Origin: Planctomycetota bacterium | Lineage (GTDB): Bacteria; Planctomycetota; UBA1135 | Direction of reading: 5' to 3' | DNA: 57,072 nucleotides | NCBI GenBank assembly: GCA_030749235.1 | Contig: JASMKM010000019.1 | Coordinates: 1-57,072, forward strand | In this document: piece after piece, positions 20,016 to 29,657 of the stretch | How positions within the stretch are numbered: the stretch's first letter is position 1 | How the letters are laid out: every line of letters starts with the position of its first letter | Program-made: the position numbers and the translations under genes | Notes under the pieces: generated by a model | What the model saw: only the letters and a program-made list of their open reading frames with translations | Database searches by the model: none | Told to the model about the DNA's origin: nothing

Positions 20016-21152
20016 TCAAGCCTCGAAGGCCTTCGCCGAGAACAGCGGCGCGCGTTCGGCGCCCACCGCAACCGCTGCACCGACGGCAAGGCCGCTGATT
20101 ATCATTGAGCTGCCACCGAAGCTAACCATCGGCAAGGGTAGGCCGGTAGTCGGCCAGACGCCAAGGGTGACTCCCACATTAAGACACAGATGCACGAGGA
20201 AATGCACGCCGATGCCGGCCAAGGTCATGCGCGTGAAGGGGTCGCGATAACGTCCGGCAAATGCCAACAAGCAGAAGCCGAGGCTGGCATAGAGCAACAG
20301 GAACAAGGTGGCGCCGACGAATCCGAACTCCTCGGCCAACACAGGGAAAACGAAATCGTTATGACGTTCGGGCAGGCGATTGAGACGGTTCTGAGGGCCT
20401 TCACCCCAACCGAGTCCGGTGACGCCCCCGGAACCAACTGCCATCTTCGAATGCCATAGGTGGAAGCCGCCATCGGCCAGCTGCTCTTCAGTGAGTTCAT
20501 CCTGGTGGTACCAGGTCAGGATGCGTTCCTTTTGGTAATCCTGGATCACTAACCAACCCGCTGGCGCCAACAACAGCGGGATTAGCAATAACCAACGAAA
20601 ACTGCGCCACGGCAAGCCAGCTAACCACACCATCGATAGAAACAGCGGTGCGAAGACGAGTGCGGTGCCAAGATCCGGTTCAATCAGGATTAGGAAGGCA
20701 GGCACAGCGGCGAGTAGGCCAGGTTTCCAAACATGCTCCAGCTTGGAGGGTCGCGGGTGATCGGCAAACCAGCGAGCCAAAGTCAGGATCAAGGCCAGCT
20801 TCATGAATTCACTGGGTTGCAACTTGAAGCCGGCGGCGACGTCAATCCAACGGCGCGAATGGTTGGTTGCGCGGCCGACGAACAACACCAACACCAACAA
20901 CACCAAGGCGCCGGCATAGAACAGGAAGGCTGGATTGCGCCAACGCTTGGCGCTCCAGGCCACTGCCGCGAAGGCACAGAAACTCAACACGGCGACGCGC
21001 AGCACATGGCCAGAGGGCAACTGCAGGTCTGGATCGACACTCCATTGAAGCACCACGCCAACCAAGATGATGGCAGCGGTGATTGGAATCACCGGCCAAC
21101 AGGTGCGGCGTAGGAAGGACATCAAGCGATAGCGCAAGGATGGTCCCTTCAT
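20016..21152 (-). CDS. rodA: Peptidoglycan polymerase RodA
   Basis: RodA is the SEDS-family glycosyltransferase that polymerises lipid II during lateral wall growth with PBP2. The 378-residue protein has about ten membrane segments and family signatures: RWIDVAAGFKLQPSEFMKLA, IEPDLGTALVF, and the C-terminal TTGLPLPMVSFGGSSMI. The extracellular loop has NRLNRLPERHNDFVFPVLAE, where the catalytic aspartate region lies. Its ATG interlocks with the mrdA stop (ATGA), as expected for partners needed in equal amounts. Confidence 0.96.
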   Translation of the reverse strand: MKGPSLRYRLMSFLRRTCWPVIPITAAIILVGVVLQWSVDPDLQLPSGHVLRVAVLSFCAFAAVAWSAKRWRNPAFLFYAGALVLLVLVLFVGRATNHSRRWIDVAAGFKLQPSEFMKLALILTLARWFADHPRPSKLEHVWKPGLLAAVPAFLILIEPDLGTALVFAPLFLSMVWLAGLPWRSFRWLLLIPLLLAPAGWLVIQDYQKERILTWYHQDELTEEQLADGGFHLWHSKMAVGSGGVTGLGWGEGPQNRLNRLPERHNDFVFPVLAEEFGFVGATLFLLLYASLGFCLLAFAGRYRDPFTRMTLAGIGVHFLVHLCLNVGVTLGVWPTTGLPLPMVSFGGSSMIISGLAVGAAVAVGAERAPLFSAKAFEA

Positions 21153-23806
21153 TCCGTCGTCTCCTGTGGATCGCTAGCCGAGACTGAGGCCTGTTCCCCC
21201 AACAACACCTTGCCTTCCTCGGTGAACAGGAAATCCTTGAGAATATAGGAGGCGATCTGACCGCCATGCAAGCCGGTGTTCTCGCACAACACGGCGAAGG
21301 CATAACGCGGTTGATCAGCTGGGAAGTAACCGGTGAACCAAGCATGCGTTGGCACGTTTTTGGCGACTTCGGCCGTGCCGGTCTTGCCGACAATCTGCCA
21401 GCGTTCTGGGAACTCGGTGCGATGGGCGGTACCGCCGATCTCATAGACCACTGCGGACAAGGCTTCGGTAATCCGGTCGCGGGTCTGCCAGGAAATATCC
21501 ATCTGCGGTAGCGGTGCCGAAGCGGGGGTCGCCCCTCCACCTTCCAGCACCAACTTCGGCCGCACCAACTCGCCGCTGGCTAACCATCCGAACAGACGTG
21601 CCATTTGTAGTGGACTGGCACGTACGCCGACTTGGCCGATTGAGGTCCGCATGCGCTTGAGGATGTCGCGCTGCAAATCTTTCAATGGCGCTAAGTAATT
21701 GGCTTGGCGCTCCAACCGAGTTGCGACGCTCAACTCATGGCCGGTGCCTTCGAACACGCTGTCGAAACCTAGCTTGCTGGCCGTATCGTGCAGGATCTCG
21801 GCGCCGAGGTCATCACCCAACTCATAGAAATACACGTTGCAGGATTTCTTCAGAGCCTCACGCATGTCGATCTCGCCATGGCCAGTACGGTTATCGCAAT
21901 GAATCGGCTTGCTGGCCGCCGATGGTTTGATCGCCCCCAGACAGGAATAACGACGGTTCCAGATGGTCGGGTCCAGGTTCAACGCCGCGGCGGCGACCAT
22001 CGGCTTGAAGGTGGAACCAGGATAAGGCTGCTCGTTGCCGTAGAAGCCGCCACCAAGGGCCCGATTACGTAACGGCGTGCCATCCTTCATGTCGCGGTAG
22101 AGGTTGTAGTGGTCGCGGATCTCTTGGCGCGACACCGTCGGCATGCTGACCAACACCGGCACCTCGCCGCTTTCGATATCCATAATCACGAAACCCACCC
22201 GTTGCGCTTCGGGATCGAATTGCTGCAGCGCCTTAGTCAGATTGGTCGGTTGCTGGGTATGCAAGCGCGCCACCGTCTCGCGATAGACCTTGGTAATAAC
22301 GCGTTCGGCCGCGGCAATCATGCCGGCATCCAAGGACAGGCGAATGTCGACCCCGTTTTGCGGCGGCGAAAACAAAAGCTCCAGCGGCAACTCACCGTCG
22401 GCACCACCTTCCAGTTCCTGCAGGTAACCGCGACTGCCACGTAATACCGGTTCATAAGCCATCTCGATGCCATCCTGGCCTTTTCTTTCGTTGGCAGCCA
22501 GGGATTCGCTCCACCACCAATCACGCAAGCGACGGAACTCTGCTTCTTCTGCGTCGGTGCGAAACAGCTGGCGGCGCAGGTCCTGGAAACGATCGCGTCT
22601 GAGACGGTCTTCGACTAGGTCGTCTTCGGTGGGCAGGCGCAGGGAGCCGATGACCATGCGTGCGACGTCCAGGGGGTAGATGCGTTGGGTGACCTGCTGC
22701 AAGTAAAGGCCGGGGTAATCGTCGGCCTGCTGTGACAACAAGTCGACCAACTCGAAATCTAGGTCGCGTTCTAGGGCAATGACGCGCAAGCGATGAATCC
22801 GTGCGGTCTGCGCGCGCTTGACGCCACTGACATCGTCGAGCGCGACAGTGCGCAGGTGATTCAAGACTGCTTCGACCACTTCGGCTTGCTGCAAGTGCTG
22901 CAGTTGCTGGAAATCCTCGTAGGCCTGCTGGTCGGCGGTCGGCACTTGCCCCGCTTCGATGCTGGCGTAGCGCTTGGGCAAGGGTGCCAAGACGGTGCCA
23001 AAATGAGCCAAGGTGCCATCCAATTGCCAGCGCTCATGGAGATGACTGAGCATCTCCTCGCGTACTTCCCCAGGTTGAGACAACTGTTGGCGGATCCACG
23101 AAGCCGTACTGCTGTAGACCCGTGCGGCAGCACCCTGCAAGGCCGCACGCGCCACCATGACCTCGAGTTGTTGGCGTCGATCCTCCAGGCGTTGCAACAG
23201 CGAGCCGGGTTCTTCGACCTCGAGCAGGTTTTCGAGGAACTGCAGGTTATGGCGCGCCTCGACCAAGCGCTGATGGAAGTAGGCACGGGCCTCGGGAAAG
23301 GCGTCGGCAAAAGTGTCGTTGCCTTGCTCGAACCAATCCTGGATGGCCACCCGCCGTGCAAAGCTGCGATTGCCGGTCAGGCCTGTCAGGTAGAAACGCA
23401 AGTCATCCTGATGGGAGGTGGCCATGCCCTCCAAGTTCTCAGGTTTCAACGACAAACACCATTCGCCCAGTTGCTCGCCATTTTGCAGGCAGTCGACTAA
23501 ACCCGCTTGCGGGTAATCAAGTAGGCGCAGAGCCTCCAACAGTTGTGCGGCGACGAAGCCGCGGCGGAAGTCGCGATAGCGGAAGTAAAGGTCGTAGGCT
23601 TGGCGATCGGTGGCCAACACCGCACCATTGCGGTCAAGGATGCGTCCTCTCTGGAACGGGATGGTGTTCTGGCCGATGCGACTGTTACGCGCGGTCTCGG
23701 TCCAATGCTCATGCTCAATCACCTGCAAGTGGAACAGGCGCGCAATCAACAGGAGCAATACCGCGGCGAACACCATAGCCAATCTCTGCAGGCGCTGGGC
23801 CCTCAT
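21149..23806 (-). CDS. mrdA: Penicillin-binding protein 2 with enlarged N-terminal domain
   Basis: Class B transpeptidase of the elongasome that cross-links peptidoglycan made by RodA. It has a membrane anchor at about 9 to 30, the family motif GRILDRNG at 54 to 61, and an active-site set of Ser598 (GSTFK), Ser655-Cys-Asn657 (SCN) and Lys808-Thr-Gly (KTGTAE). The preferred ATG at 23806 forms an ATGA overlap with mreD and gives 885 residues, against about 630 in Escherichia coli. The extra length is about 250 residues of mostly helical, Gln/Leu/Arg-rich sequence between the anchor-proximal region and the linker GQDGIEMAYEPVLRG (444 to 458). That part is the pedestal that contacts MreC and RodA in known structures, so its interactions may differ here. 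Confidence 0.94.
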   Translation of the reverse strand: MRAQRLQRLAMVFAAVLLLLIARLFHLQVIEHEHWTETARNSRIGQNTIPFQRGRILDRNGAVLATDRQAYDLYFRYRDFRRGFVAAQLLEALRLLDYPQAGLVDCLQNGEQLGEWCLSLKPENLEGMATSHQDDLRFYLTGLTGNRSFARRVAIQDWFEQGNDTFADAFPEARAYFHQRLVEARHNLQFLENLLEVEEPGSLLQRLEDRRQQLEVMVARAALQGAAARVYSSTASWIRQQLSQPGEVREEMLSHLHERWQLDGTLAHFGTVLAPLPKRYASIEAGQVPTADQQAYEDFQQLQHLQQAEVVEAVLNHLRTVALDDVSGVKRAQTARIHRLRVIALERDLDFELVDLLSQQADDYPGLYLQQVTQRIYPLDVARMVIGSLRLPTEDDLVEDRLRRDRFQDLRRQLFRTDAEEAEFRRLRDWWWSESLAANERKGQDGIEMAYEPVLRGSRGYLQELEGGADGELPLELLFSPPQNGVDIRLSLDAGMIAAAERVITKVYRETVARLHTQQPTNLTKALQQFDPEAQRVGFVIMDIESGEVPVLVSMPTVSRQEIRDHYNLYRDMKDGTPLRNRALGGGFYGNEQPYPGSTFKPMVAAAALNLDPTIWNRRYSCLGAIKPSAASKPIHCDNRTGHGEIDMREALKKSCNVYFYELGDDLGAEILHDTASKLGFDSVFEGTGHELSVATRLERQANYLAPLKDLQRDILKRMRTSIGQVGVRASPLQMARLFGWLASGELVRPKLVLEGGGATPASAPLPQMDISWQTRDRITEALSAVVYEIGGTAHRTEFPERWQIVGKTGTAEVAKNVPTHAWFTGYFPADQPRYAFAVLCENTGLHGGQIASYILKDFLFTEEGKVLLGEQASVSASDPQETTE

Positions 23807-24294
23807 GCGCGCCCCCTGCTGAATGCCTTTTTCTTCAGCTGCGGGCGAGTGAACACCGCCACAAGCAGGCCCACCCATAAGCAGCGCATCCAGGCATCGG
23901 CGCTGTCCATGGGCGTACCGAGACGTTCAGCGACCAAGCGATCCAATACCGTCAACGGGATGGCGGCACAGAAACCTGTCAGGAAACGCAACAAGAAGCG
24001 GTATTCATTCAAGCGCCGCGACAAGGCTTCGCGCACGAACAGGGCCGCGCCCAAACCACCCCAAGCCACGAAGGGCGAGACCACGGTGACGCTGGAGCGC
24101 AACAGGCCGAACAGGAAGACCAATTGAATGGGACGTCGCCAGGAATCCGGCGCCGGCACTGGCACCGCCAGCAGCAAAATCAACAACCACAGATCGGGGA
24201 AGCCGCTGCCTCCGGGCAGTTGGCGGAACAGCGGTGCGAAGATCGTCAGGAGAATCGCCACCGGCAGAATGATGCGCAGACGAGGACTATTCAC
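23803..24294 (-). CDS. mreD: Rod shape-determining protein MreD
   Basis: A 163-residue very hydrophobic protein with about five membrane segments, in the position and size range of MreD, the integral membrane member of the elongasome. Sequence conservation in this family is low, so the call rests on context between mreC and mrdA plus topology. The frame opens far upstream, but the GTG at 24294 is chosen because it interlocks with the mreC stop (GTGA) and gives a short N-terminus (MNSPRLR) before the first helix. The C-terminus is strongly basic (RPQLKKKAFSRGRA). Confidence 0.85.
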   Translation of the reverse strand: MNSPRLRIILPVAILLTIFAPLFRQLPGGSGFPDLWLLILLLAVPVPAPDSWRRPIQLVFLFGLLRSSVTVVSPFVAWGGLGAALFVREALSRRLNEYRFLLRFLTGFCAAIPLTVLDRLVAERLGTPMDSADAWMRCLWVGLLVAVFTRPQLKKKAFSRGRA

Positions 24295-25484
24295 TGTCCA
24301 TCCTCCACCACGCCGTCGGCCTGCACGATGACGCTCAACTCCGAAGACGGTAATCGTGCCGCCTGATTGCGGAAGCCCAACCACAAGCCACGTGGTACGC
24401 CATTGCCACCGCGCGTGAACAACGGCAAGGCCTCGTCGACCTGTTGCCAATCCTTTTGACCTAGGACAGAAGTCGTTTCACTCTGCAAGGCCACCGCCTG
24501 CGACTGCCAACTCGCCGGCGCGGCGATGCGGAACCAACCCCAGTTACCGCGCCAACTGCTGCACCAACCACCAACCTGTCCTTGCTCGGCGAAGACTGCA
24601 GGCTTAACGGCAATATCGGCCGCCACCGCACACCATCCACTGCCTAGCACGGCATCGTCCAACAGTAAGCGGCGTGCGGGACGCTGGACCTGCAAGGGTT
24701 CGGCTACCAGACGCTCACCGACGGCACTGGCGGCAACGTAGAGGCGACCTTCCGCAGCGGTCGGCAAGCTTCCATCGATGGTCCAGACGGCGGTGCCGCG
24801 CTGCTCATCACCGATCCGTTTGGTCACTCCCAAACGCAACTGGGCGGCATGCAGGTTCGGCGGGTCCAAAGGGCGAGGCCGCCAGGTCAGACTCTGCCCT
24901 TCGGCGATGTGATTAGCTTCCTGCAACCATGGCAACACCGCCGGACCAGCGCGGCCGCGTCCCAAGCTCACGGCCTTGCTGCGGATGCCTGCTCGCCCTT
25001 GCAGCATGACTCCCGTGCGCACGTTCGGGGCGGTGACCAACTCCACCGTGGTCTGGTGGGCGCCGACCTCGGTAACGCGCCCTAGATAACGATCGCCATA
25101 AGCCACCACTTGACCGCTGGCAATGTGAAAATCCGACCCTGCAGCCAGGGTAACCCGCCCAACCTCGGTCTCGAGTGATACCACCGGCACCTCCAACCAT
25201 TCCATGCCCGGCAAGGCATCAGGTTTCCCAAGGCGGCGCTCCATCTCCACTAACACCGAATGTTCTAGGGCCTGGCGCTTCTCGGCCGGCTCGGCGGTCG
25301 GCACGACCACTTCGGCCGCAGCCGCACTAAGTTCGGTGATTGGACGGGTCAGCGGGCCAATCAATCGGTTGCAACCGTCCTCAAGCGGCTGCCATGGAAA
25401 GACCGCCTGAATCACCAGGAACACGACCAGCCCAGCACAAAACACCCCCCGCCGGTAGCGCTCGGCCCCTGGCAGCAAAAACAC
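24291..25484 (-). CDS. mreC: Rod shape-determining protein MreC (long form)
   Basis: MreC is a periplasmic scaffold anchored by one helix that activates PBP2-RodA. The 397-residue product has an N-terminal membrane segment (VFCAGLVVFLVIQAVF), a helical stretch at about 45 to 90, and the first beta domain at about 95 to 165 with the MreC-like IASGQVVAYGDRYLGRVTEV and TAPNVRTGVMLQGRAG. After about residue 245 it continues with an unusual Trp-rich beta region (WCSSWRGNWGWF) that I do not recognise from standard MreC. The GTG start at 25484 is supported by AGGGAG nine bases upstream. It follows mreB after 18 bases. Confidence 0.85.
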   Translation of the reverse strand: MFLLPGAERYRRGVFCAGLVVFLVIQAVFPWQPLEDGCNRLIGPLTRPITELSAAAAEVVVPTAEPAEKRQALEHSVLVEMERRLGKPDALPGMEWLEVPVVSLETEVGRVTLAAGSDFHIASGQVVAYGDRYLGRVTEVGAHQTTVELVTAPNVRTGVMLQGRAGIRSKAVSLGRGRAGPAVLPWLQEANHIAEGQSLTWRPRPLDPPNLHAAQLRLGVTKRIGDEQRGTAVWTIDGSLPTAAEGRLYVAASAVGERLVAEPLQVQRPARRLLLDDAVLGSGWCAVAADIAVKPAVFAEQGQVGGWCSSWRGNWGWFRIAAPASWQSQAVALQSETTSVLGQKDWQQVDEALPLFTRGGNGVPRGLWLGFRNQAARLPSSELSVIVQADGVVEDGQ

Positions 25485-25502: not shown

Positions 25503-26555
25503 CTAGGCCAGGTCCTCGCCGTCGGAAAGGAAGGAAGCGTACAGGTCCAAATCCTCGAGGAACTTGGCCGTGCCACGCGCAACAGCAGTGAGTGGTTCGG
25601 AATCGATGGCACAAGGCAACCCCGTGCTCTTCGACACATATTGATCCAAGCCTGGCAGTAAGGCGCCGCCACCGACGACGGTAATCCCTTGCTCAAGCAA
25701 ATCCGAACCGATTTCCGGTGGCGCCATCTCGAGACAATCCAGCACCGCGCGCATGATGCCACGCAGCGGCGTATCCAAGGCCTCGCGGATCTCCTCGGAA
25801 TTGAGGACCAACTTGCGTGGCATTAGGTTCAGCGAATCACGTCCGGCGACCTCGAGGGTTTTCTCATCGTCCAAAGCCCAAGCCGAACCGATGGTCTTCT
25901 TGACCAGCTCCGCGGTCAACGGACCAATTTGCAGGTTGTGTGTCTTGCGCACGAAATCGACGATGGCATCGTCCATATTGTCGCCCGCGACCTTTACCGA
26001 TTTTACCGTGACCGGCCCACCCAAGGCGAGGATGGCCACTTCCGTAGTACCGCCACCGATGTCGACGACCATCGAGCCTTGCGCTTCGGTAATCGGCAAC
26101 TCCACACCCAGACCAGCGGCCATCGGCTCATCGACTAGGTAAACCTTGCGTGCACCTGCGCGCTCGGCCGAGTTGATGACGGCGCGGCGTTCTACGGTGG
26201 TGATACCCGAAGGCACCGAGATCACGACTCGCGGACGGACCCACGAGCGCCCTTCATGGGCCTTACGCAAGAAGTAACGCAACAACTTCTCGGTAATCTC
26301 GAAATCGGCAATCACACCACCCTTCAGCGGCCGCACGGCCTCGATGTTGGTGGGCGTTTTGCCGAGCATGCGGTAGGCTTCGTCACCGACCCCCATGCCG
26401 TCGAGAATTACCTCGTTGGTGCCTTTATAGACCGCAACCACGGAAGGTTCATCGAGCAGGATGCCAAGGTCTTGAGAGGCGACCAGCGTATTTGCTGTGC
26501 CTAAATCGATGCCCAAATCTTCGGACAAGGAAAACCGACGGAAAAGCCAATCCAT
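25503..26555 (-). CDS. mreB: Rod shape-determining actin homologue MreB
   Basis: MreB polymerises under the inner membrane and directs the elongasome. The 350-residue protein has the actin-fold signatures: phosphate 1 (LGIDLGTANTLV, about 14 to 25), connect 1, phosphate 2 (MVVDIGGGTTEVAILALGG) and the adenosine motif (GITVVGGGALLPGL). The N-terminal MDWLFRRFS is a likely amphipathic membrane-binding helix. The ATG at 26555 gives the normal family length. It opens the mreB-mreC-mreD-mrdA-rodA operon, which may read on into tdh-kbl-aacS. A candidate promoter lies at 26600-26628, just after a terminator that isolates it from the upstream genes. Confidence 0.97.
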   Translation of the reverse strand: MDWLFRRFSLSEDLGIDLGTANTLVASQDLGILLDEPSVVAVYKGTNEVILDGMGVGDEAYRMLGKTPTNIEAVRPLKGGVIADFEITEKLLRYFLRKAHEGRSWVRPRVVISVPSGITTVERRAVINSAERAGARKVYLVDEPMAAGLGVELPITEAQGSMVVDIGGGTTEVAILALGGPVTVKSVKVAGDNMDDAIVDFVRKTHNLQIGPLTAELVKKTIGSAWALDDEKTLEVAGRDSLNLMPRKLVLNSEEIREALDTPLRGIMRAVLDCLEMAPPEIGSDLLEQGITVVGGGALLPGLDQYVSKSTGLPCAIDSEPLTAVARGTAKFLEDLDLYASFLSDGEDLA

Positions 26556-26599: not shown

Positions 26600-26628
26600 A
26601 GTATAGGGATTGGCGGCCCTCGGATAAA
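26600..26628 (-). promoter_or_regulatory. Candidate mreB promoter
   Basis: On the minus strand TATACT (complement of 26600-26605) and TTTATC (complement of 26623-26628) are spaced by 17 bases, between the upstream terminator and the mreB ATG. The -35 is weak. Confidence 0.45.
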
Positions 26629-26638
26629 CCGCTAAACC

Positions 26639-26680
26639 AAAAAGGAGAAGGCCGCCCCCCGGATAGAGGGACGACCTTCT
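26639..26680 (-). terminator. Terminator downstream of the small membrane protein gene
   Basis: On the minus strand AGAAGGTCGTCCC pairs with the GGGGCGGCCTTCT arm through G-U pairs, around a short loop (stem within 26646-26680). CCTTTTT follows (complement of 26639-26645). It ends the unit of the coiled-coil and small membrane protein genes. Confidence 0.85.
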
Positions 26681-26701: not shown

Positions 26702-26950
26702 CTACTCAGGAGCCTCGTAGCTGTCCTTGAAGAACATGCCTCCACCGAACTGCTTGCCCTTGGCGAAATCGACCAGGACCAGAGCGGCAATCATCATGAT
26801 GCCCGTCACGATGGACATAACGACCTCGATTGGAGGTCCAGGGCTGACTTCCTTGGGCTCCTTGGCTGCTTTGGCCTTCTTAGGCTTGGCTTTCTTACCG
26901 CCACCCTTCCTAGGTGCGGCCTTCTTAGCGGATCTACGACGTGCTGCCAT
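26702..26950 (-). CDS. Small basic single-pass membrane protein
   Basis: An 82-residue protein. Residues 1 to about 33 are almost entirely Lys, Ala, Arg and Gly (RRRSAKKAAPRKGGGKK), giving a very positive, probably disordered and cytoplasmic tail. One membrane helix follows (VVMSIVTGIMMIAALVLVDF, about 44 to 63), then a short acidic periplasmic end. The tail resembles histone-H1-like sequences and could touch nucleic acid or lipid head groups. I do not recognise a family. The ATG at 26950 has AAGGAG seven bases upstream, and that site overlaps the stop codon of the coiled-coil gene, so the two are translationally coupled and probably work together. Confidence 0.7.
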   Translation of the reverse strand: MAARRRSAKKAAPRKGGGKKAKPKKAKAAKEPKEVSPGPPIEVVMSIVTGIMMIAALVLVDFAKGKQFGGGMFFKDSYEAPE

Positions 26951-26957
26951 CAATCAG

Positions 26958-26963
26958 CTCCTT
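26958..26963 (-). promoter_or_regulatory. Ribosome binding site overlapping the upstream stop codon
   Basis: AAGGAG on the minus strand, seven bases before the ATG at 26950. The stop codon of the coiled-coil gene (TAA, 26962-26964) is part of the sequence TAAGGAG. Confidence 0.75.
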
Positions 26964-27816
26964 ACAGGCGAGTTTTGACACGGTCGCCAGCAGCAATCAT
27001 GCCGTTACCGGCCATCTCCAGCGTTGCTGCAGACTTTGATTCGTTGACGGTCTGAACGTAAATCTGACCTTTGTAGGTCGAACCGTTGTAGACGTCGTAG
27101 GTGAAGCCTGGCTGCACAGAGTCATGCTTGCCGAGGTTGATGACGACGTAGGTCGTGCCTTCGACAGTGTCGACGCTCAACACGGAACCTTCCATCTGTG
27201 GCTGAGCACCGATGCTCTGCAGGTCGACCTTGTAGAGGCTCACAACCGTCTGAAGCTTGGCTTCGGCGACGGCTGCGCGCTCCTCGGAGCGAGCCAGCTG
27301 CAAGGCGAGGTCCGTGGCGCGACCTTCTGCCATGTTCTTGGCATCGGTGGCGGCGTTGGCCGTGGAGTTGGCGGCATCGCGTGCATCCAGTGCAGCGTCG
27401 CGCTCTTCACGAACAGCCTCGTACTGGTTGCGCACACCATCTAGGTCGCTCGCCAGTTGTCCATTGGTACCTTCCAGATCGCTCAGCTTGCCTTCGATGC
27501 CTTGCAGGCTCTCGCGCAGATCAGAGTTCTGCTGGCGCTCGGACTCGAGGCTCTCGGTGAGAGCAGTCTTCTCAGCGCTCAGCTTGCTGTTGTCAGAAAG
27601 GAGACGCTGGGACTCAGCCTTGGCCTGATCGCGCTCGTTGGTGAGTTTACCAACTTGGTCATCAAGACTTGCTTGTAGGTCAGCCTTAGATTTGACTTCT
27701 GTCTCATAATCCTTGCGATAGCTGTCGCTTTCTCCAATCAAGGAGGCAGACGCGCCCACGAAGAGCGCAGCAAGTGCAAGGTTCAGGACAACGAAAAATT
27801 TTCCGATGGTACTCAT
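26962..27816 (-). CDS. Membrane-anchored coiled-coil protein with C-terminal beta domain
   Basis: A 284-residue protein. An uncleaved-looking N-terminal membrane segment (FFVVLNLALAALFVGASASL) is followed by a long heptad-rich coiled coil at about 30 to 190, full of Glu, Lys, Ala, Leu and Gln. A beta-rich domain follows at about 195 to 284 (VLSVDTVEGTTYVVINLGKH, then PGFTYDVYNGSTYKGQIYVQ), ending in GDRVKTRL. The layout of anchor, coiled coil and small beta barrel mirrors MreC, although it is not MreC. It could be a periplasmic spacer or wall-binding protein. It lies between lnt and mreB with its own candidate promoter. No family name can be given with confidence. Confidence 0.75.
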   Translation of the reverse strand: MSTIGKFFVVLNLALAALFVGASASLIGESDSYRKDYETEVKSKADLQASLDDQVGKLTNERDQAKAESQRLLSDNSKLSAEKTALTESLESERQQNSDLRESLQGIEGKLSDLEGTNGQLASDLDGVRNQYEAVREERDAALDARDAANSTANAATDAKNMAEGRATDLALQLARSEERAAVAEAKLQTVVSLYKVDLQSIGAQPQMEGSVLSVDTVEGTTYVVINLGKHDSVQPGFTYDVYNGSTYKGQIYVQTVNESKSAATLEMAGNGMIAAGDRVKTRL

Positions 27817-27920
27817 CCCAGGTGGTTCAGACGGGTTTTTTTGGGGAGGCGGTGCGCAGGATTGCGCGGGTGCCAGTCTAGGCGCTCTCGGGCATTGGGT
27901 TTACGCCAGTTCGATGGAAA

Positions 27921-27949
27921 AATCTATCCATGCCCCTGCAAAGGGTCAA
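27921..27949 (-). promoter_or_regulatory. Candidate promoter of the coiled-coil protein gene
   Basis: On the minus strand TTGACC (complement of 27944-27949) and TAGATT (complement of 27921-27926) are spaced by exactly 17 bases. This is the best sigma-70-like promoter I find in the window. It would give a leader of about 100 bases before the ATG at 27816. Confidence 0.55.
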
Positions 27950-27962
27950 GCAAGCATCTGGG

Positions 27963-29657
27963 TTATCCCTGACTTGGCTGTGCATCGGACACCTTGCGAC
28001 GCCCACCAAAAAGGCAAAATAGCCCAATAACGGCCGTGCATAAGGTCCAAAGGGGCAGCAAAGCCCACCCCCAGCTGCGGTAGGCGGTGGTCGTCCCGGA
28101 ACTTGGCGCGATCGGCAAATCAGCCTGCCACCACGAAATTTCTCCTGGCGCAGGGCCCCAATCGACCTTGCCATCGGGATAAACCAGGCAAGTTCGGCCG
28201 GTATTGGTGCAGCGAAGGATGGCCAGACCACTTTCCAAGGCCCGCAAACGGGTGGCAGCCACCATCTGATCCATCTCGATGCCGTCATGGCCGAACCAAT
28301 CCTCATTGGAAAGAATCACGAAGGCTTGGGCGGCGTCATCGGCCTGGCTGCGGAAAGCGCTTTCGAACACGTTCTCCCAGCAGACCGCGCCGCCAAGTCG
28401 CGGCAATTGGCCAGTGGCCTGCAAAGGACCGGTTTGTTCCGTGCGGCCAAAATCGGGGCGCAAGCCGAAGGTACGGTGGGCCCAGCGCACGAAACCAGCA
28501 CTCCAGGGAAAGGAACCGCCGAAAGGCAGGTTTTCACCAAAGGGCACCAACTCCTGCTTGGAGAAATGCTGGATCAGGCTGCCGTAACGATCAAACAGCA
28601 CGAACTCGGTGTTGCGCGGCGAATACACGCCCTCTGGCGCGTCGGCGGCTACTGGATAGTAGAAATGGGCACCGGTCAGGAAATAGACCGGGCGCTCCGG
28701 CGGGTTGGTGGCTAACTCCAATGCCACCTTGACCATGGTCTTTTGGCGCTTGCGCACCGTCTCCATCTTGTGCACCTCATCGGGAAGGTCCACCCACGGC
28801 CGACGCATCTCGCCGACCGAATCCTCCTCCACTCCAGGGAAAGGCCACATAGTCTCGGCCCACAGCAGCAGATCCGGTTGAACCCCGGCCTTGAAGGCAG
28901 CGTCAGTGACCTCCATCTGAACCTTGAAGAAGTCCGAAGCCGACAAGATGCGGTTTTTGTCCTCTACTCTTACGACGGGTTGGATGCTCAAGCAGCTTAG
29001 GGTGCTTTCGGCCTCGGCCGGCGCACGATGCATCACCAGCGCCACCGCCAATAAAACGATGGCAGGGATCGCCAAGCCCCTGCGTGCCTGACCTAAAACA
29101 ACCAGCAACAAGGCGCCGCCGAAACTGGCGAACAACACCAAACCGGACTCGCCCAAGACGTCGGCCAAGGCGATCAACGGCGACGACTCCAAGGCGAAGC
29201 CAAGCGAAGCCCAGGGCACGCCGCCGACGAACAGATAGAACCAGGTCATGCGGAGGTACTCGGCCGCCGGCAGGGCGAACATGGCCGCCAAGTGGCTGGA
29301 GAGGCGTCGGTGGAGCAGGCGATAAAGCAGGCCTTCGGCGAACCAACAGCTGCCCAAAATTAAGGCCGCGCCGATGGGGGCGAGTGGGTGTACGTGCACC
29401 AGGAAGGCGAAGGACAAGCCCCAGAAAACCACCCCAGCAAGGTAGTCCAGCCACAGGTCCGACTTGCGCTGCCACCCTACATAGCGCAGTGCAACAGCCA
29501 CGAAGATCAGCGGCCAAGCCCAACCACCTAGCCAACCGGGCATCGCCACGGCGCGGCAAATGGCAGCGAGCAAGTAGAAGAGCCAGGTGGGCACGAGGTG
29601 AGTGCGGGTGTGGGAGTGGTTAAGGATTCGCCAACGGCAGGTAAGCCACGCGGTCAC
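27963..29657 (-). CDS. lnt: Apolipoprotein N-acyltransferase
   Basis: Lnt adds the third acyl chain to lipoproteins in the inner membrane. The 564-residue product has an N-terminal block of membrane segments (to about 210), a periplasmic nitrilase domain and a final membrane helix (WGWALLPLWTLCTAVIGLFCLF). The catalytic triad is visible: Glu268 (LLLWAETMWPF), Lys367 (HFSKQELVPFGENLPFG) and Cys426 (GGAVCWENVF). The start is uncertain. The GTG at 29657 overlaps moeA by 38 bases and leaves basic residues ahead of the first helix; the GTG at 29594 gives no overlap. Neither has a good ribosome site. Several lipoproteins in the window would be its substrates. Confidence 0.92.
   Translation of the reverse strand: MTAWLTCRWRILNHSHTRTHLVPTWLFYLLAAICRAVAMPGWLGGWAWPLIFVAVALRYVGWQRKSDLWLDYLAGVVFWGLSFAFLVHVHPLAPIGAALILGSCWFAEGLLYRLLHRRLSSHLAAMFALPAAEYLRMTWFYLFVGGVPWASLGFALESSPLIALADVLGESGLVLFASFGGALLLVVLGQARRGLAIPAIVLLAVALVMHRAPAEAESTLSCLSIQPVVRVEDKNRILSASDFFKVQMEVTDAAFKAGVQPDLLLWAETMWPFPGVEEDSVGEMRRPWVDLPDEVHKMETVRKRQKTMVKVALELATNPPERPVYFLTGAHFYYPVAADAPEGVYSPRNTEFVLFDRYGSLIQHFSKQELVPFGENLPFGGSFPWSAGFVRWAHRTFGLRPDFGRTEQTGPLQATGQLPRLGGAVCWENVFESAFRSQADDAAQAFVILSNEDWFGHDGIEMDQMVAATRLRALESGLAILRCTNTGRTCLVYPDGKVDWGPAPGEISWWQADLPIAPSSGTTTAYRSWGWALLPLWTLCTAVIGLFCLFGGRRKVSDAQPSQG

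Follow-up and report, generated by a model that had tools for sequence, protein, structure and literature searches.

Among described envelope proteins, those that come closest to the gene pair analyzed here are MreC, FlgT and TsaP, RodZ, the Lpp-type spacers and Rv3852. MreC and FlgT are periplasmic, and FlgT and TsaP belong to flagellar or pilus rings; to our knowledge, neither FlgT nor TsaP has a long anchored coil of the kind described below. Rv3852 is, we presume, a basic membrane-anchored protein. One study likewise places MreC in the periplasm (PMC8804602), and in E. coli the length of Lpp alone is reported not to set the width of the periplasm (PMC8824477). Planctomycetes are reported to be without FtsZ (PMC10632474) and without RodZ (PMC5147048), and P. 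limnophila is described as tolerating the loss of mreB, ftsI and ftsW (PMC6952346) and as able to dispense with pbp2 and rodA (PMC10632474).

We analyzed a window of 57,072 nucleotides from a Planctomycetota bacterium (contig JASMKM010000019.1), in which a pair of genes is placed between an lnt-like gene and mreB, all on the minus strand. The first gene of the pair (26962..27816, ATG start at 27816) encodes a protein of 284 residues, hereafter the coil protein, which the sequence and a structure model divide into a membrane anchor (about residues 5–25), a heptad coil (about 26–195) and a six-stranded beta barrel (209–281). The second gene (26702..26950) encodes 82 residues from an ATG at 26950, with a Lys/Arg-rich N-terminal tail, one predicted transmembrane (TM) helix and a short C-terminal segment. 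These reading frames and domains agree with the original prediction, made from the letters alone, of a membrane-anchored coil with a terminal beta domain followed by an 82-residue membrane protein, as does the position of the coil gene stop codon within the ribosome site of the small gene (TAAGGAG, 26958..26964, minus strand). Stop codon and Shine-Dalgarno sequence overlap in a comparable way in 13 of 75 relatives; the two genes are separated by a median of 23 nt. Upstream of the pair lies the lnt-like gene (27963..29657; CN_hydrolase, PF00795, E = 3.9e-08), which we take to be lnt. Downstream, mreB (25503..26555; PF06723, E = 6.6e-125) starts 147 nt past the small gene and is followed on the same strand by mreC (24291..25484; PF04085, E = 2.8e-08), which has hardly any coil from its TM segment to its barrel, by a gene for an mreD-like membrane protein (23803..24450) that is named from its position only and has no Pfam hit, and by a gene conserved downstream in relatives (21149..23878) that, from its sequence, we presume to encode a penicillin-binding protein 2 (PBP2)-like protein. 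Rfam models at the gathering threshold gave no match within the window. From sequence comparison and structure models, we propose at about even probability that the pair forms a two-part trans-envelope scaffold of Planctomycetota, probably tied to envelope growth.

The coil protein resembles MreC in its order of parts, an N-terminal TM segment, a coil and then a predicted beta barrel, and in being encoded in the same gene cluster; it differs in having one predicted barrel where MreC has two, and in a coil of about 170 residues. The genuine mreC, moreover, stands right after mreB in this cluster as a separate gene. The AlphaFold2 model of the whole protein consists of one continuous helix (residues 3–195) and strands at 209–281 (pLDDT 88.5, pTM 0.37), and a model of the barrel alone was confident over residues 20–100 of a 100-residue construct (pLDDT 85, pTM 0.75). 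For both models the two best Foldseek hits were MreC, with E values of 1.0e-3 for the whole model and of 2.8e-3 and 4.1e-3 for the barrel domain (r.m.s.d. 12–13 Å for the barrel, 12–14 Å overall), which bears out the MreC-like layout that had been read from the sequence. VIA-align placed the LPHT ring first (Z 11.1, r.m.s.d. 2.5, 77 residues aligned), with FlgT (Z 10.4, r.m.s.d. 3.3, 78 aligned) and MreC (Z 9.2, r.m.s.d. 2.5–2.7, 72–73 aligned) also matched, and the N-terminal barrels of F1-ATPase scored equally high (Z 9–10). Since these ATPase barrels score like MreC, we read the fold match as one to a common barrel shape, which in the models shows some leaning to periplasmic relatives. The MreC family PF04085 had no hit in the window protein or in its barrel and was weakly matched by two of the 72 barrel members (best E = 0.036), and hhalign of the coil protein against the MreC of the same loci stayed below 1%, that is, no sequence relation, on which ground homology of the coil protein to MreC was rejected.

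Barrel residues are among the most conserved positions of the coil protein. In the barrel alignment, which comprised 71 of 75 loci (L088, L089, L091 and L095 were left out), the Pfam family most often matched was FlgT_C (PF16538), found at E ≤ 0.1 in 31 of 72 members with a best E of 1e-5. These matches are weak and mostly cover a third of the profile; the best member, L048, reached 26.3 bits against a cut-off of 27, and the barrel of the window protein itself had no FlgT_C hit at E ≤ 0.1. The best PDB sequence match of the barrel was TsaP (E = 0.21, not significant). Such likeness to the FlgT C-terminal domain and TsaP, below the Pfam cut-off as it is, together with the LPHT ring and FlgT at the top of the VIA-align list, could be explained if the pair were an accessory ring of a surface machine, the barrel sitting like those of FlgT or TsaP round a secretin, a pilus or a flagellar base. 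The identified neighbours, however, are lnt-like and mre genes, the profile matches are partial and the barrel is a common one, and we regard this explanation as very unlikely.

The coil of the proposed scaffold is regular across relatives. A hydrophobic heptad period of 3.5 is present in 114 of 116 proteins, with a power of 2.0 versus a maximum of 0.73 among 200 shuffles, and proline is absent from the coil in 110 of the 116; both counts include two duplicates. The spacing from anchor to barrel, measured from N12 to V212, is 199.5 ± 1.2 residues over 76 proteins (that of the window and those of 75 named loci) and 200.7 ± 3.6 (range 191–208) in 38 distant loci. Total length is 285 ± 3 residues (n = 114; 274–295 in all 38 distant loci), against 416 ± 72 for MreC candidates as a rough control, and the length of the coil stays nearly fixed even in relatives with as little as 19% identity to the window protein. 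With a helix rise of 0.15 nm per residue, the roughly 170 helical residues of the modelled coil would span about 25 nm. Position 12 of the anchor is Asn in 100 of 114 proteins, and the conservation of this polar residue suggests that it packs within the membrane; the anchor could alternatively be a cleaved signal peptide. Matches of the whole-protein profile to coil-rich PDB entries such as myosin, tropomyosin and crescentin (among the best 60 of 236) were put down to coil composition, and weak matches to SMC and other coil families in NCBIfam and Pfam were discarded for the same reason.

Like the Lpp-type spacers, the coil protein has a coil that hardly varies in length and probably lies in the envelope, and the pair could be a passive inner-membrane tether or spacer with an Lpp-like role that fixes the width of the periplasm, the small protein only stabilizing the anchor and the position between lnt and mreB being historical. 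The near-invariant length of the coil, its general freedom from proline and the survival of the pair where no MreB is detected (see below) all fit this view. Unlike Lpp, however, the coil protein has an N-terminal TM anchor and no lipobox cysteine (there is not one Cys in the window protein, and 41 of 116 proteins lack it), and it ends in a barrel that a pure spacer would not need, yet whose residues are so well conserved. A purely passive role therefore seems to us unlikely.

Further genes of the same general build were seen in some genomes. At L141 (58 nt past the coil gene) and L165 (150 nt past it), a second membrane-anchored gene of 230–266 codons has a similar-looking C-terminal domain, as if duplicated, and in G237, G266, G321, G327 and other genomes extra frames of about 470–505 codons elsewhere in the genome match the coil-plus-barrel profile. 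These latter frames suggest a coil-plus-barrel family wider than the protein of the pair.

The small protein matches no Pfam family up to E = 1 and therefore has no helix-turn-helix domain. In this it differs from RodZ, in which HTH_25 stands before the TM segment; the likeness to RodZ is in a possible role only: beside MreB, the small protein might act as a membrane connector, and RodZ is reported to be absent from the phylum. The hydrophobic helix and some flanking residues are conserved across the small proteins, of which 74 of 76 loci were aligned (L090 and L094 were left out), and 15 distant copies missed by the profile scored 91.7% against it in hhalign, versus 0.2–1.8% for four control pairs, in a distant alignment that includes some truncated reading frames (L145, L150). 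The tail is far more variable. In the family of the window, 10–18 Lys/Arg residues precede the TM helix and the mean net tail charge is +12.2 (n = 15), as expected from the almost all-basic tail of the original prediction; that description does not carry over to other families, in which the tail is nearly neutral or acidic, with a mean of +1.7 over the 60 other named loci and a charge of zero or below in 20 of these and in 27 of 31 distant copies.

It had been suggested that the pair connects the envelope to cytoplasmic nucleic acid or ribosomes, and in that case the basic tail would serve as a tether between the envelope and chromosome, RNA or ribosomes. Apart from the charge of the tail in the window's own family, this idea draws on the sole NCBIfam match of the small protein, to Rv3852 (NF050153), which covers the tail region only (E = 0.036, 14.6 bits against a cut-off of 100) and reflects a basic tail and TM segment shared with the window's family only. 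Basic tails next to a TM segment are, however, also accounted for by the positive-inside rule, and as a shared function of the pair the link is not supported, the charge being lost in many relatives where the helix is kept. Because the tail charge varies while the helix stays, the conserved function of the small protein more likely lies in or at the membrane than in the basic tail. We consider a nucleic-acid or ribosome tether to be highly improbable as the role of the pair; such a putative link could be a lineage-specific addition in the window's family.

The two genes are usually found together. In the original prediction the pair was treated as coupled, a view that would have to be given up if the genes occurred apart in most relatives. 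This was not the case: a small TM reading frame lies directly downstream of the coil gene in 76 of 79 named loci and 31 of 38 distant loci. The three misses among named loci are two contig ends (L043, L051) and a run of N (L040), and in L014, which represents the same place as L040 in another collection, the small frame is present. Among the seven distant misses, L153, L158 and L167 have a longer TM frame at the same place, the small frame of L141 is displaced behind the second coil-barrel gene, L165 has the second coil-barrel gene and no small frame, and L154 and L161 have no acceptable small frame past the coil gene. Under a strict rule for small TM frames, 27 of 40 coil genes (the 40 include two duplicates) were followed by one, versus 8 of 462 other long reading frames. 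In L194 (f68), the coil gene lies near mreB and no small frame was called.

Relatives of the pair are widespread in the phylum. Within the order, a search with the coil protein gave a match at E ≤ 0.01 in 98 of 101 genomes (its own included; a few of the matches are weak and cover part of the coil only) and in all 43 of good quality. A 76-row profile was run against 292 Planctomycetota genomes sampled evenly; at E ≤ 1e-15 it matched 230 of them, and 163 of 209 in the good-quality subset. This stricter count was adopted in place of the 269 of 292 obtained at E ≤ 1e-5, which includes weak hits, because several families are only weakly matched; the weak matches inspected in f45 covered the coil region only. 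A scan of 84,980 species genomes, which is also the search that covered phyla beyond Planctomycetota, returned 89 relatives, and the 79 loci kept carry planctomycete-type names or just the name 'bacterium', one of them being the complete genome of strain Poly30. The named loci are mostly of the same order, with at least L091 and L102 in other families of the phylum; 75 of the 79 entered the coil alignment (L040, L043, L051 and L094 were left out). The distant loci were hand-picked among the stronger of the matches listed, with most families represented by one or two, and fractions among them are thus non-random; L091 and L102 recur in this set as L136 and L143, and 38 distant loci rather than 40 are counted. 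No Pfam or NCBIfam family scored above its cut-off for either protein, and we found no description of the pair in the open-licence PMC literature, searched mostly through titles and the starts of abstracts. With no curated family above cut-off and no description in the literature searched, the two genes represent a new family pair, though one whose architecture, an anchored coil plus a barrel, is of a known kind.

In close relatives the pair also has its own transcription signals. A sigma-70-type promoter sequence, TTGACC-17-TAGATT (27921..27949, minus strand), stands 105 nt ahead of the coil gene. The promoter scan is no evidence by itself, since one site was found versus 1.1 ± 1.0 in shuffles, a count equal to chance; the site is, however, unchanged in six of six aligned species from two genera. 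At the boundary between the pair and mreB, a predicted intrinsic terminator with a 15-pair stem (26646..26680, minus strand) lies in a 55-nt stretch with a minimum free energy of −31.5 kcal/mol (z = −4.35), and a stem is present at this place in five of the six species (counted by eye), in two of them with a different sequence. The promoter and terminator proposed from the window are thus retained in close relatives, and the pair is therefore likely to be a transcription unit of its own there, beside mreB. A CTATACT box ahead of mreB (26600..26606, minus strand) is invariant in the six species and is perhaps the −10 element of mreB itself. Between the promoter and the start of the coil gene, the sequence CGCCTAGACTG (27874–27884, minus strand) is likewise invariant in all six, and is a possible regulatory site.

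The expected linkage of the pair to mreB was confirmed well beyond these species. A same-strand MreB gene follows the pair in 73 of 79 named loci and in 28 of 38 distant loci (it is unlinked in the other 10), and lnt lies upstream of the pair in 77 of the 79. Five of the six misses in named loci are contig ends; the sixth, L105, has the pair and neither MreB nor PBP2 within 9 kb downstream. One explanation would be that the pair is a dedicated factor of the Rod complex (elongasome) that replaces RodZ and the coil of MreC, with contacts between the small protein and MreB and between the coil protein and PBP2/RodA. The same-strand linkage favours it, as do the reported absence of RodZ from Planctomycetes (PMC5147048) and the lack of a hit in the genome of the window for HTH_25, the one RodZ model used. 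HTH_25 was above cut-off in seven of 61 genomes, with partial hits, and matched in 14 of 14 control genomes; in view of the controls we regard it as a blunt test for RodZ, which weakens this part of the case.

The weak coil of MreC at most pair-bearing loci also favours this explanation. In heuristic picks of MreC reading frames from 87 of 103 loci with MreB (at least one pick, at L145, looks spurious), the median longest run free of Pro and Gly in pair-bearing loci is 17 (f1), 21 (other named loci) or 23 (distant loci); MreC thus mostly has no long coil beside the pair. In f45, possibly the anammox family, the three genomes L191, L192 and L193 have the order MoeA-Lnt-mreB and then mreC-like genes, and in none of them does the pair separate lnt from mreB (a PBP2 hit follows in two, and the stretch of the third ends early), and the MreC run is long (median 65, 47–75, n = 3). 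The gap between lnt and mreB in f45 is a natural empty site for the pair. Some distant MreC picks also have long runs, however (up to 67), and at L132 the pair occurs together with a coiled MreC.

A further point against a dedicated Rod factor is the fate of the pair in genomes without detected MreB. At E ≤ 1e-20, MreB was detected in 278 of 292 genomes, and eight of the 14 negative genomes have a completeness of 97% or more. The coil protein is present in each of these eight (E from 1e-15 to 4e-35), as is a small TM frame at the end of the coil gene, recognized by place and hydrophobicity; the small-protein profile matches one of them (L184, E = 0.006). No MreB was found within about 1.5 kb on each side of the pair in these genomes, which may yet encode a very divergent MreB elsewhere. 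With the ten unlinked distant loci and the absence of a sequence relation between the coil protein and MreC, this makes a dedicated Rod factor less likely than the scaffold, though likelier than the other alternatives. In f62, L174 and L175 have a divergent MreB directly past the pair, and five other genomes have no detectable MreB; f62 is perhaps a lineage losing MreB. In G318, which we take to be Planctopirus limnophila, the pair is present with no MreB within 7 kb on either side, and MreB is found elsewhere in the genome.

We therefore return to the two-part trans-envelope scaffold, a reading adopted because of the adjacency of the two genes, their linkage to lnt and mreB, the fixed length of the coil, the fold relatives of the barrel, the conserved N12, the retention of the pair in genomes without detected MreB and the empty site in f45. 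In such a scaffold the anchor would remain in the inner membrane and the coil would extend into the periplasm, where, at about 25 nm, it would hold the barrel at the peptidoglycan or outer-membrane side. The small protein may pair with the anchor in the membrane, through the conserved Asn N12, and give the complex its cytoplasmic face, its basic tail being an addition that appears specific to the window's family. The complex could then set the position or spacing, with respect to the outer layers, of the enzymes of envelope growth (MreBCD and PBP2 in species that have them), and it might be able to work without MreB. Because mreB, pbp2 and rodA are dispensable in P. limnophila, a role in growth there need not involve the Rod complex.

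A further and rather speculative history, which we think unlikely, would make the pair an invention of Planctomycetota that was placed between lnt and mreB after f45 had split off, took over the role of the MreC coil and of the missing RodZ connector and then ceased to depend on MreB; species that have lost MreB would still rely on the pair for envelope growth. As a trans-envelope scaffold or otherwise, a two-gene module that most of the sampled genomes contain, as a rule within the mre cluster, and that persists where no MreB is detected is a candidate envelope organizer. The pair could help to organize envelope growth in bacteria that are without some of the proteins usually responsible for division and cell shape.
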